Assembly: GCA_021234155.1 (NCBI GenBank) | Contig: JAJEKV010000099.1 | Coordinates: 2,236,165-2,300,164 of the forward strand | Direction: 5' to 3' | Length of the DNA: 64,000 nucleotides | From: Isoetes taiwanensis | Lineage: Eukaryota; Streptophyta; Lycopodiopsida; Isoetales; Isoetaceae | Part shown: one piece after another, positions 4,801 through 63,455 of the stretch | How the letters are laid out: each line of letters begins with the position of its first letter | How positions within the stretch are numbered: the first letter of the stretch is position 1 | Made by a program: the position numbers and the translations under genes | Notes under the pieces: generated by a model | Seen by the model: the letters and a program-made list of their open reading frames with translations, nothing else | What the model was told of the DNA's origin: nothing | Database searches by the model: none

Positions 4801-6678
4801 TAATGGAAGTTGCCGGACTGTGGGTGAACCGTAAGCTCAGCGACGACCATGGTGAGTTTCCGGACAAGCCGTCCAAAGACTTCTTTAACAAGACCTGGCT
4901 CCGTTTGCTACGAGGTATGTCGAATGCAGAGGTGTCACAGCTGCTCGATGAAATAATAGAAGGCAAGACGTATTTAAAGGTGCAGGCAGGGTATAGCGGG
5001 AGATTTGATTGCAAACAACGTGCAACTGACATCAAAACCCTCACTTTTATGAGGCGCGAAATTTTATCTTATGCCACAAATTTGCTGCAAAAGGATTTCG
5101 ATAGCTTCGAGGAATTGCTTCAGGCTTTTCCTGATTTGACTGAACAGAGAATACTTGATATATCAGATACTAAGAGTACGTGAAGGCTAACTATAACAAG
5201 GATCATACACTAGGTAACCTACCTGTAGCCTTTCTGGAGCCAATCAGAAATATTCTAAAGCCAGAAGAGGCTAGAAAAAGAAAAGAAAAGAAAAATATTG
5301 TCATAGCAGTGACAAAGGATGGCATCCCTACTTCCTTCCCAGTATCAGAGAATGCCACATTGATATTTATTGACATCCGTGGGATGAACAAGGTATGGGA
5401 TTGCAAGAAATACACAGACCTTTTTACAAGGATAGCTACCATGACTTAACTGCAAAAGTTTATCACTTGGTTATTATTATGCGCTCTGTGAATTTGCCCA
5501 ATTGCTTGTACAGTCAGAAGCAAATTTAGGGAGGTAGCCACCTGTCTTTGGGTTCTTATGAAGAAATGGGTTGGGAGAGCAAACGAAGGGTGAAAGAATA
5601 TCAGTATTATATTAGTCATATGTGCATTAACAGGAGTGACGTTCGTGTAGCACCTGTGCAACCTGAGCTGGAGCTTCGTCTATCTCCACACAGCAAGGCT
5701 CCTAAGCAAACACCATTGCCTCCAATGCCACTAACAGGTAATGAGGATGCCGACGACAAGATAAAAAAGAAGTTTCAAACTCTTTTTACAGGCAAACCAA
5801 GATACAAATGGGCAGCAATGGAAGGATATCTTGTATTGAAATGCCAGCTGAAAACCTCATATGCCTATTATATTGTTGATCAGCTGGTGCCCACCGATGG
5901 TTGCATCCTGGATTTCTTTTCGGCTGGGACCGCTTCTCGTGTCGCTCTTATGCAAGGCAAAAAGAGCATGGCCTTTGAAAGTTCAGGTAAAGTGTGCCGT
6001 TTCCTGAGGTCCTTCTTGGAAATGCTTGAGAAAATGGCCAGTCAAACTACTGGGGGATCTGAAGAAGAGGAGAAAGCAGAGAATGCAGAGGCTAATCCTT
6101 TGCTGCCCGACATCAGTATTACCCAAAAGACAGATATATCAGGGTTGGATGTCATTTTGGATAACCTCGATGCTAAAGGCTACGAGGAAAGAATGCAAGA
6201 AACAAAGCGATTGATGGAAGCAACTGAAAAAGGTATTGAGGCCCTCGAACCTACTTTCCAAAAACTAGGGGCACTAAACCAGAAGCTTGATGTGTATATG
6301 CCATTCTTGACAGGCGAATCTAGGTTTGAATACGTGGGCGTACAGCACATGGAAACAGACCAAGATGAGTCTGTTGGGACACAAGAGCATCAGGTACCCT
6401 GCAAAAAGCCGAAGATCTTTCATCCACACGAGATTGCTACTGAGTCGGAGAAGGAATTTATAGGCGTGATCAGTGCAGGCGATAGTGAAAATGTGGAGCC
6501 TGATTCACATGTGGAGCGCATCGCAAGTGCCATGGACGTTGAGATTCCAGAGGTCACAGGTTATTCAGAGATGGACACAACACAAGCTATGGAATTGGGT
6601 AGAGCGCATGTCATCCGCATTGCCAATGAATTGGGTGTGATACCTGATAGTGTATCTGAAACACAATCACAAGAATGA
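4767..6678 (+). pseudogene. Broken gene with beta-class amino-methyltransferase-like domain (copy A)
   Basis: Three open stretches follow one another on the plus strand: 4767-5183 (first ATG at 4779), 5180-5449 and 5548-6678 (first ATG at 5566). They lie in three different frames. A fourth stretch, 5398-5526, is in frame with the last one except for a TAG at 5527. The part from 5300 to 6010 resembles a beta-class N4-cytosine/N6-adenine DNA methyltransferase. A motif-IV position reads LIFIDIRGM instead of the catalytic DPPY. After a linker, a C-terminal motif I reads ILDFFSAGTASRVALMQGK (about 5,905-5,960), compared with the family form LDPFSGSGTT, LxA, GR. The N-terminal 138 codons are unrecognised. 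The C-terminal 200 codons are acidic and low complexity (GGSEEEEKAE). If the fold assignment is right, catalysis is probably lost. Introns or frameshifts could explain the breaks; GTACGT at 5177 looks like a donor site. No host function is proposed. Confidence 0.45.
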
Positions 6679-7049
6679 TAATTGCATCCCTATTGTACAT
6701 TACATCCTTCAATGGAAATTTTTGTTTCAGAAATATGTTTTACCATATCTTTTTGTCTTTACTATTACTTGGTGCATGTTTAATGTTGAAAATAATCGCG
6801 GCCGCGATCCTCTGTGGCAAATACATAGCTTTCAATAGTGAAATGTTTGTGCTATGCCTACTCCACTGCACCTTTCATGTACGTAATGCTCTCATATGGT
6901 GTTAATAAAAAGCTCATTATTTTGTCTCTTTTCAACTGCGAAAGATCGCGTTCGCGATTCTTGCGATAACATAGAGCATTCCATACTACTACATTCTACT
7001 CACGATGGACCTGCGCATGAGCAGTAAAAACTGTATTTCTGAACAACGC

Positions 7050-8017
7050 CGAATCATTGGTAGAATTTGTACTAAAAAACGCCAACTTTTACTTAGTTGC
7101 TAGTAGTTTCTGCACTATATGGCTAACCAAGAACCTATTTCATGCTAAACGAGAATTCCAAATTTCTCTAATTAATTAATTCATGCTTTACCGCTAGAGA
7201 CACTGCCTAATCTGCTTCTGCACTAGACTTTGCTATACACTCTTGTTTTTTACTTGTCCATGGTATTTTTGTATTTTTGAGCTTGCAAAGATAACCCATA
7301 AGTCGATTTTCTATCATCAATGTCTCCACCCAAATCTGCATCTGCATATCCAATTAAACTATTTTTTGCACTTCTTGAAAATCATAGGACATGAGTTGAG
7401 GTACCCGTCAAGTATCTAAGAACTCTCTTAGCTGCCGCCCAATGCTCCTATCTAGGCCTATTCAAAAAGCCTACTAAATAGAATAACAACATAAGTGATA
7501 TCTAGCTTTGTGCTATTTGCAACATACAGTAAACTACCTACTAATGATCCATATGGCCTATTTTCCATTTCTTTCTTCTCTGCATACATTTTTGGATACA
7601 TCTTTCTTGATATTCTTTGCCCCATATCCAGTGGTGTTTTTATTTATTGCTATCAAGCATTCTAAATTTGGCCAACATTTTCTTGACATACTGCTCTTGA
7701 GTAAGGTATAACATGCCTCGTGACCTATCCCTTCCAACCTCCATCCTTAGCAGTTTTTATAGTTCTCCCAGACCAGTCATTTGAAAATGATTTTGCAATA
7801 ACAATTTAGATTTGTCCAGCAAGGTCTTAGCACTACTAGCAATAAGGCAAACATATAGAGCCATTACCAGGCACTTGTCTCCGTCCTGTTCCACATAAAC
7901 ATTCCCTTCAGTTTTTAATTTTATAAACCCATTAGCAACTAGAAACTTATTCATGCATAAGTACCACTTTCTGGATGCCTGTGATTGTATTATAGTCTCG
8001 AACAACATGAAATGCAT
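7050..8017 (-). pseudogene. Ty1/copia reverse transcriptase-RNase H fragment (copy A)
   Basis: The minus strand reads SQASRKWYLCMNKFLVANGF, then VYVEQDGDKCLVMALYV, then FQMTGLGEL: the copia RVT_2 fingers and palm, with the YVDD region damaged. Continuing leftward it gives YGSLVGSLLYVANSTKLDIT, then YADADLGGDIDDRKSTYG, which is copia RNase H. Several stops and frameshifts interrupt it. Its upstream end meets the opposed copia fragment at ~8,040. It is non-functional. Confidence 0.8.
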
Positions 8018-8039
8018 GAAAAATGCAAGACCATTTTGA

Positions 8040-8815
8040 ATAACAGATTTGAGGTGACAAATTTAGGCATGTTGAAGAAATTTTTAGGGATGGAAGATTT
8101 GGTTTAGCATCATGCAAAGAAGTGAGTACACCATCAGTGCCAGGTCAGAAGCTTAGCTTAGAGTTATACTCTTCAAATCAAATGGAGATAGAACAAATGA
8201 AGAATGTGGCATGAAAAGAATTAATAGGATGCTTGTTGTATGTCTCGGATTGCACAATGCCAAAAATTTCTTATGAAGTCAATCTATTTTGTAGAATTCT
8301 GAATAACCAGGCAAGCAACATTGGCAAACTTCCAAAAGAATCTTGAGATTCTTGAAAGGTACACAAAATCATGGCATCATGTATAACAATGATAACTTAA
8401 CTCTTGTAACCTATATAAATGCAGATTGAGCAGGAGATATAGACACATGAAAGTCTACTTCAGGCTATATACTAATGGTTGGAAAAGGTTCAATATATAG
8501 CAACAAGGAAGCACAACTATGTCAACTACTGAAGCAGAGTACAAAGCAATATTTTCGGCTCCAGGAAAATAATTTAGGTTAAAGGATTGCTTAATGAGTA
8601 GGAATGATGCAAGTAATGTCAATAGTATTATTGTCTAACAGTATGAGCTGCATAGCAATAATGAAAAATCCAGTTCTACATGAAAGAACAAAGTACATTC
8701 ATGGTCATTTTATCATAGACAATTGCATATGAATAGGTTGCAGATATAATGGCAATGCCATTATGTGCTGGAAAATTTAGCAAATTCTAGCGGATGCTTG
8801 GAGTTAAAGACATGT
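8040..8815 (+). pseudogene. Second copia fragment, RNase H, opposite strand (copy A)
   Basis: Plus-strand frames read KELIGCLLYVSDCTMPKISY (about 8,217-8,280), AGDIDT with KSTSGYI-like residues (8,430-8,480) and ADIMAMPLCAGKF followed by MLGVKDMF (8,750-8,815), the usual end of copia RNase H. Stops are frequent. After it, AAAGGGGGAA at 8,976-8,986 fits a polypurine tract and TGAAAATATC could start a 3' LTR, whose end I could not place. It faces the minus-strand copia fragment head to head. Confidence 0.7.
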
Positions 8816-9292
8816 TTGATAACATTACAATAATTTTGGAGACATTTTTTTTGTTGCATGCAAAAACACATAAATCGTATGAAGTAAAATCAAGAATTTG
8901 TAAAGAAGTTGTAGCTATAGTTACAAACATATATATGAGATTAGGCACAATTATAAAGATGGATGAATATTGCTTATAAAGGGGGAATGAAAATATCATC
9001 AGAGAAGTTGTGTTTATGATGTGGTAATCATGATGCAATACACAAAAATGTAAGCTTAGAAAATACATTGAATAGATGTGAAGGTCTAGGATTATTGACC
9101 TAAATTATATTGAGAGTAAATAGTTTAGAGATTATATACTATTGGTAATTATATGCTTGAAAATACATTGATTGTAGACCATAGTAGAAAAATAAATGGC
9201 CAGTCAAATGCAACAGTGCCATTGCTAAATGATGTTGCTCATAGAAACTGTGATTTCTATCGCCAGACTGATAGGGTCCCAAAGAAGAGAAG

Positions 9293-9471
9293 ATTCTAAA
9301 ATGGGACTCGCAAAAAACCAACAAAGCGCCGATGAGACGTGGATGCAGAAACGCGCCTGAAATAGCGAACTCCCATCCAAAACGGGCATGCGCCGCCCGC
9401 ATGCATGCATGACATGCATGCTCGTCCCATTCTAGAATGGCGATCCGATGTCTCGGATCGATGCGATTAGC
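9293..9471 (+). mobile_element. Short hairpin-ended element (cassette unit 1, copy A)
   Basis: It starts at GATT then CTAAAATGGGACTCGC (9,292-9,311) and ends with GTCCCATTCTAGAATGGC, a perfect 7-bp-stem hairpin GATCCGATGTCTCGGATC, then GATGC and again GATT (9,468-9,471). The GATT on both sides reads as a 4-bp target duplication. Imperfect inverted ends (ATTCTARAATGGGAC and GTCCCATTCTAGAAT) enclose a GC-rich core rich in GCATGC. It has no coding capacity and is non-autonomous. Longer relatives sit in copy B. The open frame read across it on the minus strand is not a gene. Confidence 0.55.
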
Positions 9472-10799
9472 TGCAGCATTGAAGTAGCATTCAGTTGTTG
9501 GGCAGCCAGATTGATTCCCAAGGGAAAATCGTATAATGGTGAATGGTTGATTTGCAGGAAGTGAAGTTAGAGTTCTTAGCAACTCTTCTCATTGCTATCG
9601 TGACCATCGACATCTGATATAATATTGTTTATTTTGAACTATATTTGGCCATTGTACTATCTATATTGACAATAAAGTCCACATAATGCATTCACTGTAG
9701 CTTGGTCCAAATTTGAAATTTGATAGCTAACTTAAGGTTTTTATATCACAAAAAATCTTATAGACCGACCATTCGTATTCTAAAATCCATTAAGTCCGAG
9801 TTTCTATTCCCGGACTACTACCTCAAGACTCTAAATTCATATCCTAGACATGAAATAAAACTCCAACAAAAAACTAGAAAGTCGTATTTAATTAAAGTGG
9901 GACTCATTCCATTCCCATTTTTTTTCGGAACCCTGTTAATTTACACGAAAAGGAGCACCCCGACCCGAGAACTATCCTTAATTCGAATTTTTGTCTAGAA
10001 CTCTGCATCGAAGCTTACCTCCAGTTTCCCTGGATAGCGAGTCGAGAACAAGAACAATGCAACTGAAACAAAGGAAATTCATTAAAGATTGAAACCAAAG
10101 CTGATGTTGAAAAAGAATTTTTATTAATAAATTGAATAGGTACAATGTATTTTACATCGGACGCAGAGACCATGGCGGTCTTGCTGTCACTACAGTTACA
10201 TCATCTTGGTAGGTGGTCCACCTTAGGGGATTAACTTGCGGCGCTTCTTCACGCCGACTCTAAGAACTCCACATCTCAAAAATATGGTTTAAAAAATAAT
10301 ACAGAACAAGAAGCATAGTCCAAATTTTAACATTAATACTCTTTAAAAAAAAAAAAATTAGGTTAAAACCCAACAGAAAACTAGCACTCCACATCACAAA
10401 AATATATTTTTGAATATAATATAGAACAAGAATCTTAGTCTTAATACCTTAAAAACATAAATTAGTAAATTAGGCACCTTTATCCATATTATATTATGCA
10501 TCATGGTAAACCATTTCAAAAATAGCATTAATTCAAAACATTAAACCTCAAAGGATCCTTAGACGCAACATGCGAAATGAACATGATTTTAAAGTTCTTG
10601 AATATCTTTTACTTATTGGAATATCTTTCTAACATAAGTTTACTGCCAGATTAATGCCTAATGCTTGTCGAGTTCAATTCGTCTCACATGCATTTTTTTC
10701 GAGTCCGACACCATGTTGCAATGCACGAAGAATTGCAATGCATGGAGAATCTGCGTAGACAAAATCACATGGATCCAGTGAAGGGGGATGGCATCTCCT
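9472..10799. other. Spacer without a supported gene
   Basis: AT-rich sequence with homopolymer runs. One minus-strand stretch near 10,230-10,270 reads GVKKRRKLIP then stop, which could be the end of an old coding region, but nothing upstream supports it. AATC at 10,800-10,803 is the empty target of the inverted cassette insertion seen in copy B. Confidence 0.4.
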
Positions 10800-11079
10800 A
10801 ATCTTCAATTATGGAAAGGATGAAGTCATCTTTAGTATCTACTATAAGTTTTATGATGGGAGAAAAGTAGTTATATGACATGATTCCAGTTTGTAACATG
10901 CAAAGGCTTATGTTTCTACAACATAAGTAGATGGAAGTTGAGTTTGTAACTTCTTTTACGAGACTTTTCTAGATAGTACTTTCTTGGATAACACATCTGG
11001 TACCCCCATAAGGGTTGCTTGTGCTTACCATTTAAAGAGAATCATTCTGACAATCTATGTCCTCAATCATTGTTGTATT

Positions 11080-11430
11080 GGTATGTGGGCTAGGAAGACT
11101 TCACAAACAAGGAAGTTTCCTTCAAATATCATAGTGTTTCTGGGAAATGGGAACAAACTGATCCTTCTGTGCTTTTTTTGAAAGAAGATGAAGTGTTGAT
11201 TGTAAATTGTTTCTTCCGGCACCTTAACCTGATGGATGATTCTATTGTGGCTGAAGGCGCTAGAAAGATTTGACTTAGCAAGATCAGAAGCATGAACCCT
11301 GCTGTGTTTATTCAAGGTGTAAAAAACATCAACTATAACCTTTTCTTCATGTCCAGATTTACAGAAGCCATGATTTACCATGCGGTTATCTTTGATTCTT
11401 ATGATCATTGTCGCCTAAAGATCACCAGTG
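11080..11430 (+). pseudogene. GRAS transcription factor fragment, LISCL/PAT1-like (copy A)
   Basis: One plus-strand frame reads VSFKYHSVSGKWEQ, LKEDEVLIVNCFFRHLNL, RSMNPAVFIQGVKNINYN, then FMSRFTEAMIYHAVIFDS. This follows the PFYRE part of the GRAS domain in the LISCL (SCL9/SCL14) group, where the usual order is KWE, GEVLAVNCLFRFKNLLDE, NPDIFIHGIVNGSYNAPFF and TRFREALFHFSALFD. Here the family LLDET reads LMDDSI. A TGA follows GARKI in both window copies. Copy A also has a frame shift near 11,410 where CTGCC is written CGCC. Only about 110 codons remain of a ~500-700-residue family: no start, no leucine heptads, no SAW end. It is a dead fragment, retroposed or captured. Confidence 0.75.
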
Positions 11431-12725
11431 CTATTAAAAAGTTGGGCTAAAGTTGGGCTGTAGTATTTTTTGTCAAAATTTGAGCTGTTGTATTTTTACA
11501 AAAGAATCATCACATACATTTACTAATTTTAATACACATCCATACCAGCAAATCATTGTAAGCACTATCACTTCATACAGATTCATATTTTCTTTTGAGC
11601 ACTAGTTACAAATGTATTTTGTAGGGATTGCAAATAGTTTAAAATGTGATTTGTCATGTCTTGTAGTAAACGCCATGTAGTGTGCAACTACTTTGATGTG
11701 TACTTTTTAGATATTCTGAACCAAATCCATATGTGCAAGCATGGCAACAGGAATTATGCCAAAGTGTCGTAACAACGAAATGCATAAAATGACCAAAATG
11801 CATAAAATGGGCAATGAAATAATGCAGTAAAAAATGGGAAAGGAACAATGGGGATGAAAACAAACAAATCCATGAATATGACCATGACAAAACATAGTAA
11901 CACGGCTCCTACAAAATTGATGCACTAAAGAATGCTACATCAGCAAAAAGATATGATGAGAAAACCACGAGAGAAAAATGAAGCAATGAGAGAAATGAAG
12001 CGAATAATGGAGTGATAATATCAACTGTGAAAAAATGAGCCAGAATTAAAATATCTATCAGTAGGAAAAGAAGGTAAAAGAAGAAAATGAAGGAAACATC
12101 TTGGAAAGTGACACAATATGAGTAAAACAAGACCACTGAACTCTGAAGAATCAGTCGCTCGAAGCTTAGCCAACAGACCAATGGCAACTTTTAAAATTTC
12201 TCAAACAACACTGCGTTAGTAAGCTTTTATGATATAAACAAGAACATAATCCCAACGCATGTACAAATACATATAGCATGAGTATGAATAAAACAAGAAC
12301 ATAGAAACACCCTAGGGTATACACCAGCATATGACTATGACTCTTTTACAATAATTATTGGAATTGAAGGGCCAAAACATTTCCTTTTCCTTTAATGTTG
12401 GGCATTGGCACATTGTATATATAGTGCTCTATTGAGAATTTGGGGAGACTATTTAGGACAATAGTTGTAGTCAATTCACATGTACTCCAAGTGCAGCACA
12501 TGCACATGCCACATGAACATTGAGTCATCCAAAAGGTGCATCCATTTAAATATGTAGTATCCATCTAAAGAATGATGTTCAAGCAAAATTAACAAACTCA
12601 AGTGAAGGCTTCGGTATCCATCTCCAATGAATAAGCAAAACACAATATTTTGCCTCGTCGTCATGCAAAATAAATACATGAATAAGAAGAAGCAAAGGAT
12701 GTTAGATACGAATCCTTATTGAATA
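11431..12725. other. AT-rich spacer, no supported gene
   Basis: After the GRAS homology stops, both strands hold only short frames. GCATAAAATGACCAAAAT then GCATAAAATGG at 11,780-11,810 is a small tandem duplication. The matching stretch of copy B (about 42,000-43,290) is nearly identical, so no selection can be read from it. Confidence 0.5.
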
Positions 12726-12885
12726 AAATTGCTAGCTTAAAGCCATCTAAAACTTTATTAAAAGGTGTAAATCATTTCACGTTGTTGTCAATATTATATT
12801 ACATTTGTATTTGCAACATGCAAACTAAAAAGCATAAAGCATCGGCGGCGAATGCTGCCACGATAAATTCTTGTCTCTAATAATA
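12726..12885. repeat. Diverged repeat, left copy (pairs with 15,790-15,960)
   Basis: GCTAGCTTAAAGCCATC, CATGCAAACTAAAAAGCATA and TGCCACGATAAATTCTTG recur in the same order at 15,790-15,960 (GCTAGCTTAAAATCATC, ACTAAAAAGTACAA, CGCCACGATAAATTCTTG). The two copies bracket about 3 kb. They may be relics of LTRs or of two related insertions. Confidence 0.5.
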
Positions 12886-12957
12886 TATAATTGTAATATA
12901 GAAGGCAAGGAGCCAGCTTAGGCGCTGGTGCCTTTAATGGAAATTTATGATATGAAT

Positions 12958-13090
12958 TATACACGTGTCTACATGAAAACGTTTAGAAGACGGTAATTTC
13001 TTCTGGAGATTTCGAGTATGGACCTGAAGCTTTCGACAATTTCTGGAAGTTTCCAGCCTATTCTTTCAAGCGTTATATATAAAGGGCAAG
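12958..13090 (+). promoter_or_regulatory. Promoter-like stretch: G-box and TATA box
   Basis: ACACGTGTCT (12,961-12,970) contains the CACGTG G-box core. TATATAAAGGG at ~13,075-13,085 is a good plant TATA box, followed about 25-35 bp later by purine-rich leader sequence. The same arrangement is kept in copy B near 43,530-43,660. No convincing coding region follows, so this may be the promoter of a retroelement LTR or of a lost gene. Confidence 0.35.
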
Positions 13091-13149
13091 GGTCAGATGC
13101 TTCGACCAATGCAAGAAGAAGCCAAGAATTCTGAAGAGGTCGCGGAAAG

Positions 13150-13260
13150 GAGGGTAGGGCCCCTGTTTTCGGCCACAAGCCCTGTTTTCGGCCATAGCCC
13201 CTGTTCCGGCAAACAAGCCCTGCTTCCAGCCACAGGCCCTGCTTTCGGCCAGAAGATTGA
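13150..13260 (+). repeat. GC-rich ~20-bp degenerate tandem repeats
   Basis: CCCTGTTTTCGGCCACAAGC recurs with changes four or five times (CCCTGTTTTCGGCCATAGC, CCCTGTTCCGGCAAACAAGC, CCCTGCTTCCAGCCACAGGC, CCCTGCTTTCGGCCAGAAG). Open frames on both strands here (about 69 codons) are produced by the repeat. Confidence 0.6.
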
Positions 13261-13699
13261 TCCAGCCACCTCTTTTCTTCAATCTTTCCTAAATCCGACC
13301 CTCTGAGCTGCTTGAATGCAAGCTCAAAACCTCCTTTCTTCCTTTCTCAATATTCTTAATCCGGCTTTTATCTCTGAAACGCCAGCTATGGCACGCGATA
13401 CATAGTTACAGGTCGCTCTGATTCAGGGTAAACCAGTGCCGAAGACAGCGATTTCGGTAAGGATTTCAGTAAGGATTTCTTTTCCAGTTTGAAAAACAGC
13501 TGAATTTTGATAAGAGCCGCTCTAGAGTTGGGACAAGTACTTAGATCGGGTACGGCCAAAAGAGATAAAACAAGAAAATAGCCATGTATATTCATGCCCA
13601 GCTTTGGTTGTTTAGCTTCTGAAGTTTTGCCAAAAATGCAAAGGAGCCATTTGGGTTTTGCAAATCAACCTCTACTGGTAAAAATCACTAGAATTTGCA

Positions 13700-13803
13700 G
13701 GTAGCTTCTTACAATAACTGTAGTGATGTCCTGAATGCATTAGCAGCAGCTTGCCAAGCCGTTTTTTCGGACTCTGTGGAGCAGTCAAATTTGTTACGCA
13801 CAG
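13700..13803 (+). other. Exon-like segment between consensus splice signals
   Basis: TTTGCAG at ~13,695-13,701 precedes an open stretch translating SSYNNCSDVLNALAAACQAV then FSDSVEQSNLLRT, ended by ACAG followed by GTTAGT. The boundaries look like an acceptor and a donor. I do not recognise the peptide and no partner exon was found, so it may be one exon of a decayed or captured gene. It is identical in copy B at ~44,300-44,410. Confidence 0.2.
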
Positions 13804-14390
13804 GTTAGTTAATGCCAGTGATTTTTGGCCCAGGATATATGCTTTTCAAGACAATAACAATTATGGTGTGGCATACTTTTGGAGACAATTACGGCTGGCA
13901 GGGCTATGGAGATATATACAAGGTTTATGGAGATACATACAACGGCGATATATTAGAACAAAGGACCTACTTTTGTTGATTCATAGCACTTGCACGACTG
14001 CATGCCGAGAGTACCATAACAAACGTGATTATGTTCTTATTATTTGAAGGGCCCTGTACCATGTTCATGTCGAGTGTAATGCAGGGCTCCTTTACAGACA
14101 TGATGCAACAGTGCAAGAAGAAAGTGGAGCAACAAAACCTAGGAATGCTTTGAATAATCCTATTATGATGTAAGCTGGCGACACATAGTTACAGGTCGTG
14201 ATTGTGCTTTGGCAGTTGCAACTGTCCTCTGACAGGCAATTTTGTACCCACTTCCTAGTTTTCCTTCGAGCCTAAGCATGTTTTATTTGATGGCAAGAAT
14301 CAATTATTATCCACCACATAATGGAAGCGTCAGGCTTATTCTTTAGTTTCTGATCCTTCTCCTTCTAGATATGATGCGAACTTCCATGAG

Positions 14391-14690
14391 ATAGTTTTCC
14401 CATTTTATATACTTACTAACTATAGTTTTCCCATTTTATATGCTTACTAACTATGAAAAGCAGCAACTTATCTAATTTTAAAGCCAGAGGCTATTTGCCA
14501 TTTAAACACTTTTTTCCAATGTTGATGCTGCGATGCCAACAAAAATAGGGACATGTTCTTGATTGATTTTTTGTCCAAGATCGATTATTTATGGCTTTAA
14601 ATACAGATATTTGTTTAAGATATTTTAAGTTATCTAATCATAAAAAATATAGATATTTGTTTAAGATATTTTAAGTTATCTGATCGTTAT
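14391..14690. repeat. Two short tandem duplications, length-variable between copies
   Basis: ATAGTTTTCCCATTTTATAT with an ACTTACTAACT tail is repeated at ~14,391-14,455. TTGTTTAAGATATTTTAAG then TTATCT is repeated at ~14,611-14,690. The corresponding stretch of copy B (44,985-45,200) is rearranged and shorter, so this is a genuine difference between the two copies or an assembly weak point. From 14,700 to 15,790 no gene is supported. Confidence 0.6.
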
Positions 14691-15789
14691 TTCATGACTC
14701 ACTACAAGTTTGTACAATGCAGTTTGTAATCGCATCAAGTTACCATTCTTTTTGGTAGGGATCATGATTCACAATTATTCTTGCAAGAAAAAATAGTTAC
14801 AGATTCAAAGGTCTACAAGCTGGATTTGTGGAAGTGGATGCAAAATCTATGTTATATAGGCTGTGTATGTCACCTGGCTGACAATTATATGTTTCCTTGT
14901 GTATTTAGTAAGTTTGTTGAGCCGATCATGTTTGTCTTCAAGCTTCCGAGTTCAATATTCATACACAATTTATGAAGCACAATCTAAATTCAATACCGGT
15001 CTAGATGACTCAAGCTGAAGTAGCAAAAAACATGAAGAGATTTTGAAAAGGAGTGACCCTTGCTTACTGCATCTTTTGAAGCTTTGAAACGATTATCTTA
15101 ATATGCTCAATCCAAAATGGTCTTTTGCTATATTGTCTGTCTGATGGTAAAAGTATAGAAGCAACTGATATTTTGAGTTTGTTATGTAGATGGGCTAAGA
15201 CATTGAATTTTGTAATTGAACATAACCGAAATATAAGCAAATAGAGAGCTTTGTTTGAAGCTTGATTTATTGATTCTTTAGAGATGCTGAATATCGTTTT
15301 GATACAAAGTTTTGACCTTCATACGTCTTGCAGTAGAACAACAATATGCAGTCCATTATAAGATGAGCAACATATTGTCGATAGTGCAGTTGAATCTACT
15401 ACATTTACGTTTACAACTGTAAGTGAAGGCATGGTTGCACCAATAATATTACCTTAATATTTGGATCTTATCTTTAAAATAACTCTTTGTACAAAAAGGC
15501 TTTGCATGGTGTAACATACCTAGGAGTACTTGTGTTAGAATGAAGTTTCAACATCATAGTTTTATCTATCCTAGAATGTTCCATTACAATTTTGTTGTTG
15601 ATTCATATTGTACGTTGTGTAGTTCACATTGGATGGATGGAAGCTTCAACCTAATTGGAAGGCTACCACTTAGATACAAAAAGCAATAGGGGCTCCTCAA
15701 GTTTTCCACGTCTTCATCATCTAATTGAGTACACTTATAGACAAAGGCAAAAGATTTTTTTCCAGGAACCAATCCTATTGATTGTAAAT

Positions 15790-16110: not shown

Positions 16111-16306
16111 ATGGAGCAAACAAAGATCCCGTAAGTTTGAGATTTCTCGCTCCTTTTTCTAATTGAAGGCTGTAAAAATGCTTTTTACAGTCCATTTACG
16201 TCTTTTCTTTTACTACTTAGGCAACACAACAGAACAGACGCCTGTCTCCTAGAAAAGAGTGGATGAGAAGTAAAAATATAAGTTCTAACCTCTGTGAAAC
16301 GTAATT

Positions 16307-40329: not shown

Positions 40330-40333
40330 AATC

Positions 40334-52975: not shown

Positions 52976-53410
52976 ATCTGCCGAATATAGTGACGAATCA
53001 TATGACGAAAAAAACTGACGTTTGGTTCTGACTAAACATCTGTCTAACATGCTGACTAATTATATATTGATGATTTACCTGACGAATAGTTTGACTAAAC
53101 CCATGACTAACATAATGCTGATTGTGTTGACTATTACATTGACTAACATGCTGTCTTTTTTTTTTCTGACGAAATGGCTGACTAAAAATTTGACTAAAAT
53201 GCATAACTAATAGTATGACTAAAAGGGTGACTAAAAATATTACTAATAATTTGACTATTACTCTGACTTATTGTTTGACGAGATGTCTAACTAAAAATTT
53301 GACTAAAATTACCGACTAATAGTTGAACTAAACAAGTGACTAAGAATCTGACTAATATATTGACTAAGATTGTGACTACTTGAGTGACTTATATAGTGAC
53401 TAACATTATA
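52976..53410. promoter_or_regulatory. CACTA subterminal TGACTAA array (copy B)
   Basis: By eye about 27 TGAC cores, most as TGACTAA or TGACTAT, direct and closely spaced (10-25 bp). The terminus itself contains AATGACTAC. Likely binding sites for the element's own accessory protein, as known for En/Spm TnpA. Confidence 0.75.
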
Positions 53411-53639
53411 TACTCGTCAGAACATTCGTCATATATGATATCAATTCTCCAATATCATGTCACCTTTATCCAATATCATGTTTACCACTTATAATTATCC
53501 CAAGTGTGTTTTCTAGTGTGAGAACATGTTCAACAACTCCATTGTAAGGATTTTTTTTTTTTTTTTTGAAGGACGAAAGCCAAAAAGTTTATTAATCAGA
53601 GAAAAAGTACAAAATTTACATGTCTCATCTAACTGTGTA

Positions 53640-55305
53640 AGCACACAGAGATGCCACAGGAGCACGAGCCTGGAGCACAATGTACTTACTCCAGAATAGG
53701 AGACTAATGATAAGAATCAATTCGAAGATACTGACTGAGTCAAGGAAGAACACTCGTAGGCTGTCAATATTTTTTCCTGGGCCACTGTAATAACATTGTG
53801 TGCAGATGAATAAATGCCCTGAAAGATGTGGTGTCTGCGACGCTCCCATATCGACCATAGGAGCCAACCGGAACCAAGATGAAATGCCCTTTGTTTAGCT
53901 GGAGGCCATGCGTTGGGATAGGGCGTAAAAGGATGCATCGGCGGTCAATGTCTTTGTTAAACAAACCTTGTAGCCATGACCACGCTGGTTGAACCTCAGG
54001 ACAATCAAAGAGACAATGCTCAAGAGTCTCAACGTCCGAGAGGCAAAGCGGGCATACTGCAGATATGCGCGGATTATAGCGATGTCGAAAGGCATTAACC
54101 CCGAGCACTGTGGATAACCCGCCACCACAAGTCTGAGACTTTAGGGTGGAGCAACCCATCCCAAAGCCATCGCCATGTACGACACAAAGTGGGTCGTGGA
54201 ACATGTAGGTGCCACCCATCGGCAACCGGAGGGGTTGTGGTGCTAAAAGAAGGCGATATCTTGATCGACAAATTGCTTGCCTTTGTGAATATTTTCATGG
54301 CGGTCCCATGGCACCCTTTCAAAGAACACCAACTTGCACTATGAGAGGCAAATTTTTGCGACCTTCTCCCATAGAGATACATCCCAACGAGAGAGCGGGG
54401 AACTTTGCACGAAATTCAGGCCAAACAAGGTGGCGACCCTCCTCATACCATGCTTGAATAGAGACAACACCGCAAGAACCCATCGTCTCGTGTAAGGGGA
54501 TGAACCGAGGCTGCCAATGGAGGTGCCGAGGGGTCGGAGGCGATGGTGCCCACCACCATGGAGTCTCCAATAGGGTGTGGATAGAGGGGCATGGCGAGAA
54601 AAAGATGTCGATCGCCTCCCATCGCCGCCAACAAGCCACACAAAAATGGAGAAGCGCTTGGAAAAGGCTGCAGAGTCTGAAATAAAGCCCAAGATAGGAC
54701 TGGTTTGACAGCCTTCTTGCCTAGAGGGATACAGTGACCAAGAGCTTGTCTAAGAAGGCGTGAACCACGAGAGTCATCCTCACCATTCAGGAGTCTCCAA
54801 ATAAACTTTGAAATAAGCACTTTGCTCTGCGTAAAGAAGAAGTCCATCATACCCGGACCACCGCCCATTTTGGAAGGATGCACTTCGACCAAGCCACCTT
54901 AACCACAGCACCTTCCTCAGTACCTGCCCAAATAAAGTTCTGAACTATTGCAATGAGCTCACGCACTTTAATCTGTGGTGCTAGCATTAAGGATGCCATA
55001 TAAACATGGGTACGACTAAGGACTGACTTGGCCACTGTAATGCGACCTGCAAGAGACAACTTAGCAGTGGACCACCAGAACAAGTGCTTCTCCAAACCCC
55101 TAATGATCTCCTCCCATGCGGCTCCCATAGTAACATGGATGCCAACCTGGAATCCCCAACAACTTGATGGCCCTGTCCATGCGCCAAGTAATTTCCATGG
55201 ATAATCGTGAACACATGCCGGAGCCGGATTATCCAATGTCCACAAAGCTGTACATACGCCACCCCACAAGAACAGGAAGCCCGGTGAAAAAGTGTCTAAA
55301 AGCAT
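53640..55305 (-). pseudogene. LINE ORF2 C-terminal part with zf-RVT knuckle
   Basis: Frame-broken. 55,305-54,850 encodes the thumb/connection (WWSTAKLSLAGRITVAKSVL, VQNFIWAG). 54,225-53,764 encodes WRVIHSARGVNAF-type sequence and the knuckle CPLCLSDVETLEHCLFDCPE (CX2C, then HX4C). Both window copies are damaged here, so real decay and sequence error cannot be separated. Confidence 0.75.
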
Positions 55306-55339
55306 TTTGGCAAAGCAGCCCGATTCTCATCATTAGCGA

Positions 55340-56460
55340 CTAGGAAGAGGAACGTGTCGTCCGCGCATATTGATTGCAAACCTCTTGTGTGCCGTCCTCC
55401 ATTGCAAGACCATGGAGAAGTCCCCTCTCCGCCGTTGCAATGGTGAATAAGCGTGACAAAGCCTGCGCAACAATTGTGAAAAGCAATGGTGCTAAAGGGC
55501 ATCCATGGCGAATACCACGACCGAGTGAAAAGGCATGTGACGGCTCACCATGGAACAGGACAGTCGCCCTAGCAGAGATATGCAGCTTCATAATATCTGA
55601 TGTGAATTGTTCCCCAAATCCCAGTCTTAGCATACAACGACGCATGAATTCCCAGCTGACACTGTCATAAGCTTTTGCAAAATCAAGCTTAAGGTATACA
55701 ACTGGAAGGTTTTGCCTACGTGCCCAATAAATTCCCTCATAAGCAGCAGCAATATTATTCAAAATGCACCGTTTTGGAAGAAAACCTGACTAGGTTGTTG
55801 AGATGGACTCTGCCAAGATGTCCTTTACCCGCTCTGCAAAAGCCTTGGCGAAGATCTTATATACGGATGACAATAAGGTGATGGGCCGCCAATCTGAAAT
55901 AGTCTGAGGATCCTTGACCTTGGGGATGAGTGAGATGGCACCTGTGTTTAGAATTCTATCCAAAGCAGTGGACCGCTGAAAGTCACAGAAAGCATCATAT
56001 ACATCTGGCTCCAGCCATTCCCAATACTCCTGGAAGAACTCAATTGGCAAACCATCCAAACCTGAGCATTTGCCTCTTTTCAGTTCAAAGACTGCCGATT
56101 TTAAATCGTCAGCTGTCATAGCCGCCTCTATTGACTCTCGCTGCTCACCAGAGATGATGGGGGAAATCCGAGATAAAACAGCATCTTGCATTTCTGATTG
56201 AAAGGAAAGATGTTTCTCAGCAAAAAACGTCTGGAAGTGGTTATGCAGATGCTGCCTGAGTTCAGTCGGCTCTGTTAGCATCGAACCATTCGGCAAAAGC
56301 AATGAGGACATGGTTGATGTCATGCGACGCCTCTTAGCTGCACGAAAAAAGAAGCCCGTACAACGGTCTCCATCACGAAACCACTGCAGACCTGCCTTCA
56401 TCTTTGCTTGCTGAATTTGCTCCTCCTCCAATGCTTGGATCTGTGCCAAAATATCATAAT
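55340..56460 (-). pseudogene. LINE ORF2, reverse transcriptase part
   Basis: The open stretch 56,449-55,790 carries SGLDGLPIEFFQEYW, ISLIPKVKDP, ISDWRPITLLSSVYKIFAK. After a short frame break, 55,762-55,340 carries LDFAKAYDSVSWEF, GIRHGCPLAPLLF and, shifted, ADDTFLF, the equivalent of the catalytic [FY]xDD box. These are RVT_1 motifs in the right order for plant L1-like LINEs. Short indels interrupt it. Confidence 0.85.
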
Positions 56461-56462
56461 CA

Positions 56463-57021
56463 TGACATTAGGGATTTTTTGAGATCATAAAAGGGCCTTC
56501 TAAGAACTGCTGACTAAGCTATACGAACTACCAATCAGAAAACAAAACTGGTAATCCAGTCAGCAAAACAGTTATAACTAACTTACTGGATCACATTTTC
56601 TAGCATAACTGTTGATAGAAAAGTCCAAAGGAGCTCTTGTTTGGTGCAATAGATAGATCTCATTGAGATCTTTCCAACCTTGGGTGGTTTTGCATATCTT
56701 TTAGCTCTGTAGGATACTAAAAATTGGTAAAAACAATAGTTTTTGGAGTTTTGACAATCATAAGTGGTTAAAATATGTGCAAACCACCTAAGGTTGGAAA
56801 GATCTCAACAAGATCTATCTATTGCACTAAACGAAAGCTCATTTGGACTTTTCTATCAATAGTTATGCTAGAAAATGTGATCCAGTGAGTTAGTTATAAT
56901 AGTTTTGCTGACTGGACCCGTCAGGCTCTGATTTCTTATTAGTAGTTTATTTATCTTCATTTGGCTTAGTTGGCATGTTTTGAAGGCCCTTTTTTAATCT
57001 CAACAAAACCCTAATGACACC
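56463..57021. mobile_element. Fold-back MITE inside LINE ORF2 (copy B)
   Basis: Long inverted arms: CATTAGGGATTTTTTGAGAT (56,466 on) against the inverse of 56,985-57,018; GATCACATTTTCTAGCATAA near 56,590 against its inverse near 56,870; CTTTCCAACCTTGGGTGGT near 56,670 against its inverse near 56,790. The loop is short. No clear target duplication. It holds the stop codon that ends the endonuclease frame. A third nesting level: MITE in LINE in CACTA. Confidence 0.8.
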
Positions 57022-57999
57022 TGGAAGACGTCCCTGTCGAGAATGGAGCAGGTCCTGATACAAAGTGTCCAGTAAAGCACGACCTGCTGCTGCAGACTCT
57101 CGACCCCACTCTTTGGCAAAACCCTTGACTGCCGCAATTGCATCCACTATGCTAGTCATACCTCGACGTCGATTGAAGGCAGTTGTCCAAGTATTCTTGC
57201 AACCTTCTTGAAAATCAGAATCCTTTAAGAACTTCACGTTCAAGCGAAAACACGTCCTTCCAGGCCGCCGCTGCTGCAGGGGCTCGTCTGAAATGAATTG
57301 CGGATAGTGGTCTGAGACTGAGTTATCTCTGAGACAGAATCGAAAGAGACCTGGAAGTGCCGCAACTGTATCTGCATTCCAATAAGCTCTATCCAACCGA
57401 GAGCTTGCGCGACCCCCACCAACTTGACCATTGCACCAAGTGAAGGCACCTTCACCATCAATCTCCGAGAGGTTGCAGTCATGGAGTAGACAAAACCACT
57501 GCTGGCGTTCAAAACCAGACACCACTGTAGAGGTCGCCCCCAACCGATCAGACTCCACTTCCACCATATTGAGATCCCCAACAAGAAGCCATGAAATGTG
57601 GCAGCCCAAGCTGAGTATCTTCCCTCGCAAAGAGGCCCACAGTGAAGCTCTCTGATGAGGTCTATTGTGGGCATAAACATTAATTAGACCATATTTAACC
57701 CCTTGTTCCTGCCATACAATGAGGGCCCAACGACCAAAGCGATCAGCCTGAGTAAATATAACTGGCAAGGAAGGAAGCCATGCTATCACGACCCCTGCAC
57801 TAGCAGAATCAGCTGCTGCGATAAGGACATTAAACCTGCGACCAATCATGTCTGCAAGCTTTGATACGTCTCCCTTACGACACTTATGCTCTTGAAGACA
57901 TACAAACTGAGCATCCAATCTAGATTAGTAAAAAGAAATACGACTCCGTTTGAGGGGGGAGGAGGCTACCCCCTGAACATTCCATGAGACTAACCGCAT
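56947..57999 (-). pseudogene. LINE ORF2, APE-type endonuclease part
   Basis: ORF2 starts at ATG 57,999-57,997 (MRLVSWNVQG, endonuclease motif I), overlapping ORF1's end. A frame shift near 57,940 leads into the open stretch from 57,918: QEHK (catalytic Glu), NVYAHN, VGDLN, RLDRAYWN and SDHYP, the full set of APE endonuclease motifs, then a linker. The frame then enters the fold-back MITE at ~57,020 and ends in it at 56,947. The enzyme would nick target DNA. It is severed from the reverse transcriptase, so the element is dead. Confidence 0.85.
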
Positions 58000-59246
58000 T
58001 GATCTTGTGATGGGGCCAATTCAGATGAGACCACTAGTGTCTCAAGGGAACTTGAGGATGTTTCCTGGGCACGTGGCATGGCAGCAACTTCATCAACCAA
58101 ATCAGCCCACTGAAGTGAATCAAAGCGACCACCATGGGATGCAATGGGAGGGGCAGTGCCATCTGAAGCAGGAACTGAGAGCTGGGACGCAGAGGAATTA
58201 GACCCCTTAGCAGACTTTCGTGGTTGACGAAGAGCCGGTGGATGTTTAGGTGGTGGGTGGATGCCACGCCGATCAATGTCCATATACTGCCTACGAGCCT
58301 CTTCAATTTGCTCTTGCGATTTCTGGATTTCAGCCAGTCTCAACATTTGGTGATCCAGAGACTGAGGTGGAGGAGCTGCAACTGGAAGAGAAGGGGGGGC
58401 AATCACAGGCACAGGAACTTGCGAGATATCCACTGAGGTGGGAGCTGATCTATGAGCATGGAGTGCCGGAGGAGCAGATGGAGAATCCTGTTGGTGAACC
58501 CTACGATATTGAGCAAAGAGAGGGGCTTCGGGAAACATGAGAGCTAGCTCAGGACCATTCAACAAGGACAACTTAAATGGAAAGAACATGGGCCCGCTTT
58601 GGACAACAATTGTTTGAGGCAAATCACGATGAATGGGCCTTGCCACGCAAACCTTGGTGATGCCGTTGGTTATGGAGTGTTGCAAATGGAGTCCAATCTC
58701 ATTAGCAATGGCAGAAATGAACTTGGAATCCTGTAACTCTGGAGGAAAATCTTCGATAGCAAACCAGAAGGGGGCACGTAAGGCATCTGACTTAGCTGGA
58801 AAGGATCCAGGAACATACTGTTGATAGAGTAAGAAGTGTTTCCAGAGAGGATCAACACCTCGTTCTATGAGTTGAGCAGCCAGTTCGGGAGATTCAAACA
58901 TCAAAAGAAAGCAACGTTGATCTTTTGCCACAAGCTTGATAGATTGATAAGCAGGGAGCCCTAGCTTGTGAAGGTGCCCAGACAGCCAAGATCCCACGCG
59001 CTTCAAATCCAGGAAAGGGCCAGTTAAGTGGCAGACCACGGAACACGCAACCAACTGCTCCACATGTCGTCGATGATCCTCATGGCTAATCTGCACCACT
59101 GGAGCCCCAAAACGCTCAAAAGTTGCCCTGCACTCCTGAACCTCATAAAAAATTTCGTCTGATGGGAGCTGGACATCCATAGAGTCTTGCTTGGCTTGCA
59201 ATTGCTGGAGATAGGACACAACTTCCTTCCTGTTATTATCCACCAT
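57990..59246 (-). CDS. LINE ORF1, DUF4283-type nucleic-acid-binding protein
   Basis: 418 codons, open throughout. Residues ~65-185 resemble DUF4283 of plant LINE ORF1 (VGSWLSGHLHKLGL, CFLLMFESPELAAQLIERG, APFWFAIEDFPPEL, AIANEIG). A Pro-rich linker (~250-310) and a Glu/Gln-rich helix (EIQKSQEQIEEARRQYMD) follow. No CCHC knuckle is seen. Its role would be to coat the LINE RNA. Its stop (TAG) overlaps ORF2's start in ATGCGGTTAG. Confidence 0.8.
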   Translation of the reverse strand: MVDNNRKEVVSYLQQLQAKQDSMDVQLPSDEIFYEVQECRATFERFGAPVVQISHEDHRRHVEQLVACSVVCHLTGPFLDLKRVGSWLSGHLHKLGLPAYQSIKLVAKDQRCFLLMFESPELAAQLIERGVDPLWKHFLLYQQYVPGSFPAKSDALRAPFWFAIEDFPPELQDSKFISAIANEIGLHLQHSITNGITKVCVARPIHRDLPQTIVVQSGPMFFPFKLSLLNGPELALMFPEAPLFAQYRRVHQQDSPSAPPALHAHRSAPTSVDISQVPVPVIAPPSLPVAAPPPQSLDHQMLRLAEIQKSQEQIEEARRQYMDIDRRGIHPPPKHPPALRQPRKSAKGSNSSASQLSVPASDGTAPPIASHGGRFDSLQWADLVDEVAAMPRAQETSSSSLETLVVSSELAPSQDQCG

Positions 59247-59621
59247 GGTGGCAATGGCCTCTGAGACACGAGCCGAGGTGGCGGGAGCCGCCAGGCCCTT
59301 GCAAAGCCACTCAGAGAACCGGACACCTGTAACTCGAGCAACTGTATTAGATGATCTCCAAGGTGTGGTCGATGCAGCTTGGGGGATAGAAGAGGATGTC
59401 GCCCCAGGCTGCCGTGGGGAAAGGATTTTTTTTTTCTCCTATCAATGTAACTTTAAACATGAAAACAATATAGGAATATAAAAATAATTTGAGCACTAGG
59501 AAATACATACTTAAAAACAAAAAGTAAATTGTCATATGTATAGAACACCGTAGTTTGAAATACGATCTCTAGCTAGTCTAAAATCATCATCTTGTATGTC
59601 ATTCCATTCATAATCGTCTAG

Positions 59622-62616
59622 TTATAAAAGCAGCCTTCGTCGTATATTTGGCATTTGAAGGTCAACGTCTTCCTCCTCTTCAATATAATCTTCTGCCATT
59701 GGGGAGTGCATTGGTGATCCCAATTCTTCATTGGTGGTTTGCCCTTGAGCTTCATAATCTTCTAGACTTTGTGTCTCGAAAAATTCCAATTCTTGCTCAT
59801 GCTCTATATCTTCCTCACATTCCACAAATTCCAATTCTTGGCCATGCTCTAAATCTTCCTCATGTTCCTCCTCTTCTTCCTCAAGGGTTATATTAGGAAC
59901 GTGTCAATGTGATGTTGGTTCTGTAGGGATTACGATCCACCATGTATTGTGAGGGTTGACATGGAAAAATACTTGCTGAACTTGTTGTGGATACACAAAC
60001 GATTCACTTACATCTACTAATACATGAGTGGAATCAACTTCACAAAAACCAGATGGATGTGGCCGCACTGTTTGATTTCTTCCGCGATATAGAGGCTTGA
60101 ACCATTTCGCTTTTAAAATAGTCTGTCGAAATGAACGAAAATCTACATCAATAATATCAGTAATAACTCTGACATATTCAAGCTCTCCATCAACAGGATT
60201 ATCATCTCTAGCGCTTGCTCGACTTTTTTGGTCAAATGAGGCAATTATTCCAAAATCACAAGTGACACGAGCTTTGTCAATGCTATCAATTCGAAAATGT
60301 TGACCATAGGCCCACATTGAATTATGGAACCTAGCCTGCAAATTGAATAAAAACTCAAGTGTCAGTACATATTATGAATAACAATAACAATAACAATAAC
60401 AATAACAATAACAATAACAATAACAATAACAATAACAATAACAATAACAATAACAATAACAAATTCAGACTTACTGATCTGTTACACCCAAGAGCAATGT
60501 TGAGATCATCTTCTTGTATTTTTTCTCCATTGCCTTCAGCCTCCCAAAACTTTTCAGATTGCCACCAAGAGGGGGGATTCTCCGGCAGGGGCCTTAGTTC
60601 TCGAGGATATTGTACTCTCCTATGACGTCCTCGACGATTCCTTGCAGTATATGCTTTTCTATCACTATCTCTTTGTGCCTTTTCAACTTTATATAGTTCC
60701 ACCCACCTAGTGAGACCATCTGCATTGTTCAATACGAATTTGTTGATGCCTTCAAATATCTCGTCACTTAACCTTCGTTGCTTACCCTGACCTTGTAAAA
60801 TTTCACCTTCTAACCAATCAAGAGCCTCCTTCTTCCAAATCTTTGGTGCATTTGGATCTATTGATGTTGTGGCATCTGTTAAGAAAAAAAATGTCTCTTG
60901 AACAAGGTACCCTTCTGCCATACATCCCTCAGGCCTAGCCATCTGGCGCACAAAGCCTTTTAAGACCTTCATATATATCTCCAAAAAGAACATCCATCTA
61001 GAGGGGTTTGGATCCACGAGCAAAATCTCTTGTGGCAAATGCACCAACAAGTGTACCTGATGATCACATTTAGTATGTGCAATTGCCAATGTGTGACTTA
61101 TTCAACTAGCTACGTACCTGAAGATCAAAAAAGCTAGTTGGAAATAAGTGTTCTAACTGGCATAATATCTCTGCAATCTCTATTTCCATGGTGGGAATAT
61201 CCGCAGCTACAATCTCTTTAGAAGACACTCACCTAGAAAAGCTAGTGAGTCTATATATGACCTTCCGGATAGAAGGCATGAGGCAATTCTCTAAGGCACA
61301 TGGGAGAATATACTGTAACGAGACAAAAAAAATTTGATTAGTCATACATACAAGTTGTCAATATTGTTTATCCTATAGTATAAATACCTGTAGAAAGTTG
61401 TGCCAATCATGCGACTTTAAGCCGGTGAGATCTCCATCTTTTGTGAATGCCCTTCTTAGGGAGGAGCCATGACCAGTTGGAGTGCGAAGAGTTTTAATAG
61501 AATTTTTCACTTGTTTGAGTTATCCCTTTTCAATACCCACGGACCTCGACGAAAGCGAGGAGCTTTGCCTTCTTCTATGATACGCCACAATTCTGTTTTG
61601 ATGTTGTTATCCTTTAGATCATTTCTAGCATTAAGAGTCTCCCAATCTCCTGTAAGATGTCGCCAAGGTGAATGGCTTACATTCTTAAAAATATGCATAG
61701 GATCCAATAGATGTGCAATCTTCAATTCAGACCAGTATTCCAACTTGTATAAGATGGATAGTCTCTTCATGCCAGGTGGAGGTGCAGAACTGTTTAGGTC
61801 ATGATCATTCCATGTTTGCAACCAATCATGTGGAGTTCTTCTTCTAGGCACAACAGATGTATCACTACGACGAAGCTCATGATCCAATGGTAAATATTTT
61901 TTGTGGTTTGTGTATATCATCTTCGATAGGTGCTTTGATCTATAAGATGTTAATTCTTGGCCACATGATGGACATCCACATTTTCCACTAGTTTGCAGTC
62001 CTGCAAAGTAATTCAATAACAATATATTAGAAAATAATCTAAAAATAAGAATATGAATGACAACATTATACCTGACGCAACACCAAGTCCGGGATAATCA
62101 TGAATAGTGAAACATAATATACCATGAAACATGAAATTGTGTGGTTGTCTCGAAATATCATACATACGTATTCCTCTCCATAAAGTGTCAAGTTCCTCCA
62201 CAAGAGGTTCCAAGTACACATTCATATCCTTCACTTGGGATTTGCCTAAATATATATATTATTCAAATATAAATCCAAAAAACCATAACCTATATAAAGA
62301 CAAGCTGCAATGTTATGTAGAGATATTTACCTGGAACTATCAGTGTGAGCATTAAATGGCCTGCTTTAGTTGCCATCCAAGGTGGTATATTGTAGTTTAT
62401 AACAACAATGGGCCAAACACTATAAGTAGACGACACTGTGCTAAATGGACTAACACCATCCATGCCCAAAGCCAAACGAACATTCCTAGGCTCGTCCTTA
62501 AAATGCTTCCATTTGTCTTCTATATGTTTTAATGCCTCACCATCGGTTGGATACCTCAAGACACCATCATTGCTTCGATGTTTTGCATGAAAGTCCATGA
62601 ATTGGGCTAGATCCAC
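59622..62616 (-). CDS. CACTA transposase (tnp2, DUF4218, DUF4216), multi-exon, best read in copy B
   Basis: Open stretches on the minus strand, in order: 62,616-62,290 (FKDEPRNVRLALGMDGVSPF, YNIPPWM, GHLMLTLIVPG: tnp2 core); 62,234-62,013 (LEPLVEELDTLWRGI); 62,022-61,507 (SCGQELTSYRSKHLSK, LLDPMHIFKNVSHSPW: end of tnp2); 61,089-60,475 (VHLPQEI, RPEGCMAEGYLVQETFFF: DUF4218); 60,336-59,904 (CDFGIIASFDQ, FRQTILKAKWFKP: DUF4216); acidic tail to 59,622. GTAAGT at ~60,472 and TTTGCAG at ~60,337 bound an intron. Several stretches end with CAG-GT-like donors. The protein would cut CACTA ends. Whether it is still functional is unclear; the N-terminal exon is not found. Confidence 0.8.
60377..60461. 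repeat. (AACAAT)n microsatellite in a transposase intron (copy B)
   Basis: About fourteen uninterrupted AACAAT units, read TTATTG on the transposase strand, inside the DUF4218/DUF4216 intron. Copy A has an interrupted version. Confidence 0.95.
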
Positions 62617-62636
62617 ATATGTTAAGTCTGTGTTTT

Positions 62637-62735
62637 TTTATCTGTGTCCATTCTGTAGATAACAGATCTATTTCATATCTGTTAATGTTTATCTGTGTCC
62701 ATTCTCTAGATAACAGGTCTATTTCCCACATCGAA
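62637..62735. repeat. ~58-bp tandem duplication upstream of tnp2
   Basis: TTTATCTGTGTCCATTCTGT then AGATAACAGATCTATTTC occurs twice. The minus-strand open frame with EIDLLSREWTQI repeated is a product of this duplication. Copy A keeps it at ~32,155-32,250 with damage. Confidence 0.6.
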
Positions 62736-63069
62736 GATCCAGATATAGCAGCTATTATAATCAAAATATTCAGAAGACATGTTTTGCTGGAACATCTTCT
62801 GAAAGCAACATATTCGAGCATGGATAGTAAAGCATAGTTTAAATATAAAGAAAGCTATGCTTAGATTTTGCATGCTTAGATTCATGGCTCCGTTTGCAGG
62901 CTTCATGTCCTATGTGCAGAACATCTCCTTTGCCCACTCCCATATCCACTCCTTTGGCAGAAGTGATCCCTCTTGCCAGACACCAGCTTAGATCTCATAT
63001 GGGTACTGGGTAGCCCACGAATGCCTTAATCAAATGGCATGTAGCATCTTTTCTGTAGATTCAAATGGT

Positions 63070-63455
63070 AAGTAAAATTCTGGAAATAAGTAGCATTTTT
63101 CTACAGCTATGGTGGCAAAGCTTTGGAAATCAAGACTGCAGTTATTTATGTGGGCTGCTAAGGTTGCCAATGCATGCAATGTAGGCTGTTAATTTTTTAT
63201 CAAATGAAGTACGTATACTGCCATGATTTTGAAGGTTGTAATGTAGTGATAGTGAAGTAAAATTCTGGAAATCAGTCCATGAATAGCTTCAACTAGCATC
63301 TTTTTACAGCTATGGTGGCAAAGCTTTGAAAATCAAGACTGCACTGCAGGTATTTAAGTGGGCTGCTAAGATTGCCAATGCACGCAGTGTAAGCTGTTAT
63401 TTCTTATCAGATGATGTACGTATACTGCCATGATTTTGAAAGTAGTGATAATGAA
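63070..63455. repeat. ~185-bp imperfect tandem repeat in the CACTA 5' region
   Basis: AGTAAAATTCTGGAAAT, TACAGCTATGGTGGCAAAGC, AATCAAGACTGCA, GTGGGCTGCTAA and GTATACTGCCATGATTTTGA recur in order in two units (from 63,070 and from 63,254). Copy A ends at the N gap inside its second unit. Confidence 0.75.

Follow-up and report, generated by a model that had tools for sequence, protein, structure and literature searches.

Does a stretch of some 28–30 kb that stands twice, head to tail, in a lycophyte scaffold record a duplication in the plant, or a single locus that the assembly has written twice? The question is raised by a window of 64,000 nucleotides from Isoetes taiwanensis (assembly GCA_021234155.1, contig JAJEKV010000099.1, forward-strand positions 2,236,165 to 2,300,164), in which two long direct copies, here called A and B, meet at a gap of six undetermined bases (N). 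Positions given without a contig name count from the first letter of this window. The arrangement is best explained as an overlap artefact of assembly, between haplotypes or within a single haplotype, by which one locus was written twice; a probability of about 0.9 is assigned to this explanation. The two copies probably come from different haplotypes, an assignment that is less certain than the overlap itself.

Two direct copies flush with a gap

A scan of all 64,000 bases found a single run of characters other than A, C, G and T, the six letters NNNNNN, and the repeat is arranged around it as follows.

4958..32872, + strand: copy A, 27,915 bp, the right-hand end of the left contig, error-rich from ~22.4 kb to the gap
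32873..32878, no strand: 6-N gap between the contig tips, the sole N run in the window
32879..63338, + strand: copy B, 30,460 bp, the left-hand end of the contig that follows, error-rich up to ~41.4 kb and better thereafter

A and B share one orientation and are collinear along four main alignment blocks at 91.0–93.2% identity. These pair A 4958–9000 with B 32880–36948 (91.0%), A 9004–9464 with B 37507–37965 (92.3%), A 9329–10803 with B 38845–40333 (93.2%), and A 10800–32870 with B 41372–63338 (92.6% over 22,416 columns). Chance similarity is ruled out by an E value of 0.0 for the long blocks. Positions 9329–9464 and 10800–10803 of A each fall in two blocks because repeats have been inserted in B, and three inserted dispersed repeats are the main reason for the 2,545 bp by which B exceeds A. 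At the gap, 2 bases are left unaligned in A and 1 in B, the repeat being flush with both gap sides. The initial annotation had described a 28–30-kb direct repeat meeting at a 6-N gap, with A ending at the equivalent of ~63,338 and B beginning at the equivalent of 4,958. Alignment reproduced this repeat with the coordinates right, and extends to within 2 and 1 bp of the gap.

The hexamer CTTAAG, presumably the DLE-1 motif, occurs twice in A, at 9731 and 25188, and these sites match in position those at 39249 and 55688 in B. The spacing between the paired sites differs between A and B by 982 bp, nearly as much as the third insertion in B is long (~1 kb).

Searches of the genome (1,658,258,908 bases in 1110 contigs) were made with two probes taken from the repeat unit, the best 40 candidates being scored for each. 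Among these candidates, both a 2.55-kb probe (10850–13400) and a 3-kb probe (19300–22300) matched near full length at A and B only, all other matches being partial. This result bears on the suggestion that a dispersed segmental duplication was wrongly joined by the scaffolder. In its favor, the scaffold is presumably a computed join, but a dovetail flush with the gap is the geometry of an overlap, and neither probe found a third near-full-length copy among its best 40 candidates. A misjoin of this kind is considered extremely improbable.

Sequencing error at opposite tips

The differences between the copies are unevenly spread. When counted in 1-kb bins along A they are fewest at 11–13 kb (0.3–0.4% mismatch) and most frequent near both ends, and the profile can be divided into five zones.

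A 4958–9000: 52.6 mismatches and 29.2 insertion/deletion (indel) events per kb
A 9004–10799: 44.0 mismatches and 21.5 indel events per kb
A 10800–13425: 6.9 mismatches and 3.4 indel events per kb
A 13426–22600: 24.9 mismatches and 12.5 indel events per kb
A 22600–32870: 63.1 mismatches and 36.8 indel events per kb

Both the 1-kb bins and the zones agree with the quality turning points that had been placed at ~22.4 kb in A and ~41.4 kb in B. Transitions and transversions stand at a ratio of 1.0–1.13 at the noisy ends, compared with 2.6 and 1.25 for the two zones of the middle. For indel events relative to mismatches the ratio lies at 0.49–0.58 in all five zones, the middle included, so that the middle is not set apart from the tips by this measure. 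A middle dominated as a whole by substitutions was considered and rejected on that ground, and sequencing error probably reaches into the middle as well.

Which copy carries the error at each end was assessed against an outgroup, namely close relatives, elsewhere in the genome, of transposable elements in the outer parts of A and B. The features concerned are the two tips and one retrotransposon.

32879..41371, no strand: noisy tip of B; 84.9–86.1% identity to all four relatives compared, with 88–96 gap openings (~2.2 kb tested)
22600..32872, no strand: noisy tip of A; 85.1–86.1% identity to all seven relatives compared, with 73–83 gap openings (~1.9 kb tested)
55340..59438, − strand: frames in B of a retrotransposon of long interspersed nuclear element (LINE) type, with Exo_endo_phos and DUF4283; an outgroup yardstick, its counterparts in the noisy tip of A broken up

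At the left end the outgroup consisted of the four best-scoring of 39 other places listed and covered ~2.2 kb of the tip; A is 95.1–97.1% identical to all four, with 3–14 gap openings. At the right end, where the seven best-scoring other places among 87 rows listed were cut out and ~1.9 kb of the tip was covered, it is B that agrees with all seven relatives (95.8–96.8%, 0–7 gap openings). The opposite outcomes at the two ends indicate that the excess error is private to the right tip of A and the left tip of B, over the ~2 kb tested in each. The longest stop-free stretch at the left end (first 4 kb of B) is 382 amino acids (aa) in A versus 96 aa in B, and at the right end 482 aa in B versus 154 aa in A. 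Some 10–11 points of extra, indel-rich difference would be in keeping with contig ends that consist of nearly raw nanopore sequence. The proposal made in the initial annotation, that the two sides of the gap are overlapping contig tips of one locus, is thus supported by the flush alignment, by the outgroup tests of error and by unit probes that found only A and B.

Haplotypes, a single haplotype or paralogues

The origin of the two contigs is best approached through three insertions in B and an open frame that both copies retain.

36951..37508, no strand: dispersed ~558-bp repeat, B only; empty site in A at ~9000–9004
37966..38981, no strand: dispersed ~1-kb repeat, complete in B; A holds a short remnant at ~9289–9470
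40337..41374, no strand: second ~1-kb copy of the repeat at 37966–38981, in opposite orientation, B only; empty site in A at 10800–10803
20479..21171, + strand: Dof zinc-finger open frame of copy A, 230 aa; PF02701 at 4.1e-14
50999..51691, + strand: Dof zinc-finger open frame of copy B, 230 aa; PF02701 at 1.5e-14

A search with the repeat at 36951–37508, in which the best 40 of 3602 candidates were scored, returned 39 other listed matches, of which 33 start at query positions 51–53 and all 39 end at 607–609. The ~558-bp and ~1-kb families both have many genomic copies, mostly ~80–89% identical to the B copies among the matches listed. The inverted pair at 37966–41374 in B was also considered as a fold-back read artefact, a possibility rejected once both arms were recognized as the dispersed ~1-kb repeat. 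Between A and B the Dof frame differs by 27 substitutions (1, 11 and 15 at codon positions 1, 2 and 3, respectively) and 0 indels, and the bin at 19–20 kb of A holds 50 mismatches versus 7 indel events.

One form of the overlap explanation, whose odds are contained in those of the overlap and do not add to them, holds that both contigs represent the same haplotype and attributes every difference between them to sequencing error and local misassembly. It is favored by the error at both tips, by the near identity of A to B at 11–13 kb and by an indel-to-mismatch ratio that is equal in the middle and the tips. However, base-calling error does not account for dispersed-repeat insertions whose empty sites are precise, and the 19–20 kb bin and the Dof frame are unlike the tips in their makeup. 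A single haplotype is therefore regarded as possible, if doubtful. It is because of the insertions confined to B, the 19–20 kb bin and the Dof frame that an origin from two haplotypes is preferred. As far as sequence can tell, these differences would be expected of haplotypes or of old paralogues; insertion polymorphism between the copies, with three insertions in B, is what an allelic overlap predicts, and paralogues would show it too. The initial annotation had left the choice between contig and haplotype overlap open. Its overlap stands, and an overlap of haplotypes fits better than two readings of one haplotype.

Old paralogues would mean a real, older tandem duplication of ~28–30 kb, whose copies had diverged by base changes and insertions and between which the assembly had broken. 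Insertions in B with empty sites in A and a Dof frame that is open in both copies despite its substitutions are compatible with such a history. A divergence of 2–4% is easily reached by paralogues, and two other abutting repeats, described below, have no N at their junctions. Yet under a tandem duplication both contigs must stop in error-rich sequence 1–2 bp from the alignment ends with just 6 N between them, and the error at the tips needs a separate explanation. It had been argued earlier that a tandem would need its junction to fall at the gap; this is not strictly so, given that two contigs ending within separate copies would give the same picture. In that event sequence would be missing between them, for which a 6-N gap has no room if it was sized on the optical map. 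A tandem duplication is judged unlikely, and an overlap, probably of two haplotypes, is retained as the preferred explanation.

The copies hold further elements. In B, a self-inverted insertion of ~557 bp (56463–57019), 78% identical to its own reverse complement, separates two parts of the LINE-type element; listed relatives of the element match either side of this insertion and none matches across it. Transposon pieces on the − strand of B at 59907–62097 carry Transposase_21 and DUF4218, together with DUF4216 below the cut-off, and we take them to be of CACTA type. An array of the hexamer AATAAC occurs in both copies (A 29891–29982, 15.3 units, 96% matches; B 60377–60462, 14.3 units, 100%).

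Similar junctions and the assembly procedure

Four other same-contig repeat pairs that were met in passing, on contigs designated C1110 (the scaffold of the window), C1048, C1069 and C952, were followed, and two of the four proved to be abutting direct repeats (~26 kb and ~47 kb per copy), both without N. On C1110 the copies at 2357102–2382956 and 2382967–2408972 are collinear and 91.8% identical over a main block of 25,762 columns, with 10 bp and no N between them. When compared with one relative, the second copy is noisier at its start (73.8% identity, 47 gap openings) than the first copy (84.1%, 13 gap openings); an outgroup comparison in the interior gave 89.9% with 54 gap openings versus 89.1% with 59. 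The repeat in the window and this second repeat are probably the two ends of one bridging contig of ~114 kb (C1110:2269043 to ~2382956), the ends of which repeat those of its neighbors and which bridges ~57.6 kb that neither neighbor covers. On C1048 the copies at 10848896–10895824 and 10895826–10942687 (~47 kb each, compared at their ends only) are separated by 1 bp without N. Here the place of the left end was worked out in advance from the right end, and the sequence then retrieved did match there, at 80.9% (3,686 columns, 195 gap openings). This abutting repeat raises the odds of overlap and lowers those of tandem duplication and misjoining. That genuine, diverged tandems of 26–47 kb stand at three places, two of them ~58 kb apart in one scaffold, is considered very unlikely; if true, large head-to-tail duplications would be unusually numerous in this lycophyte genome.

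The pair on C952 is a direct duplication of at least ~11 kb that runs onward from 12444695 and 12570470, a spacing of 125.8 kb. On either side of a transposon match its copies agree over 2.3 kb at 90.4% (left, 80 gap openings) and over 6.1 kb at 95.8% (right). Relatives of the window sequence at 19783–20320 form a same-extent pair on C967, at 413807 and 575178, 161 kb apart, which is possibly another duplicated stretch.

A procedure capable of producing such junctions has been described. The published I. taiwanensis assembly is given as 1658.30 Mb (204 scaffolds plus 909 contigs); Oxford Nanopore Technologies (ONT) v9.4.1 reads were assembled and polished by minimap2/miniasm, racon and pilon, after which came Bionano DLE-1 hybrid scaffolding, LR_Gapcloser in two rounds and purge_haplotigs (PMC8566536). 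The assembly studied here, which agrees with it in size and number of sequences, is presumably that assembly or a near version of it, and hence Bionano-scaffolded. The BiSCoT paper reports that the Bionano tool leaves contigs that share labels unmerged, writing one contig, a 13-N gap and then the other contig, with the shared region duplicated; it describes these overlaps as ones that 'usually correspond to allelic duplications' and adds that short reads tend to map to just one of the copies, the other staying unpolished (PMC7649008). LR_Gapcloser is reported to be able to close gaps partially (PMC6324547). A literature search for wording on 13-N or negative gaps found no paper. The overlap first suggested from the letters of the window is thus also backed by the published Bionano step and by the two further abutting repeats, these being without N.

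On this basis, one locus would be covered by two contigs that overlap at their ends, A and B, and each contig would finish in sequence near raw long-read quality. Each contig probably carries a different one of the two haplotypes of a diploid plant, and this difference likely kept the assembler from joining them. The scaffolder, led by an optical map that showed the overlap, would have placed the contigs in series with a short N gap, unmerged, and the shared 28–30 kb would consequently have been written twice. Later gap closing would have shortened the gap here and probably removed the gaps at similar places elsewhere. We infer in what order the pipeline acted at this site, how large the gap originally was, and that the copies are haplotypes, not paralogues.

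Several observations weigh against an overlap artefact. Besides the uniform ratio of indel events to mismatches noted above, B has a third CTTAAG site, at 34907, without a counterpart in A. Amino acids are altered by 15 of the 24 differing codons of the Dof frame, and for two alleles the divergence is high, at 2.5% across the middle and 3.9% within that frame. The gap holds 6 N, compared with 13 N in the documented Bionano overlaps, a difference for which partial gap closing could account. The lack of N at the C1110 and C1048 junctions would fit gap closing and would also fit real tandems there. On C1069 (34.8 kb spacing), no match of at least 150 bp was found at the predicted left end of an abutting copy, and there is no N in the pieces read. 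On C952, likewise, no match was found where the end of an abutting copy was predicted, and the pieces read contain no N.

For users of the assembly, an overlap written twice would mean that the Dof-bearing frame and several transposon frames are counted twice and that the error-rich tips yield false broken genes. Studies that deal with copy number, tandem duplicates or young duplications would mistake the A/B pair for a recent event. A filter based on N gaps would miss the two other places, as their like arrangement is without any N. In biological terms the locus would be ordinary, an unmerged contig overlap and not a biological duplication.

The arrangement in the window resembles the Bionano overlap duplication that BiSCoT corrects, in which two contigs likewise stand in series across a short N gap with their overlap written twice, and which is further like it in being often allelic with one copy unpolished (PMC7649008). 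The shared optical labels of such an overlap are here read from motif positions only. In long-read assemblies, false duplication of the haplotype type places both alleles of one locus in the primary assembly. Both alleles of one locus would likewise be present in the primary assembly here, with the difference that they stand end to end within one scaffold and not as a separate haplotig.

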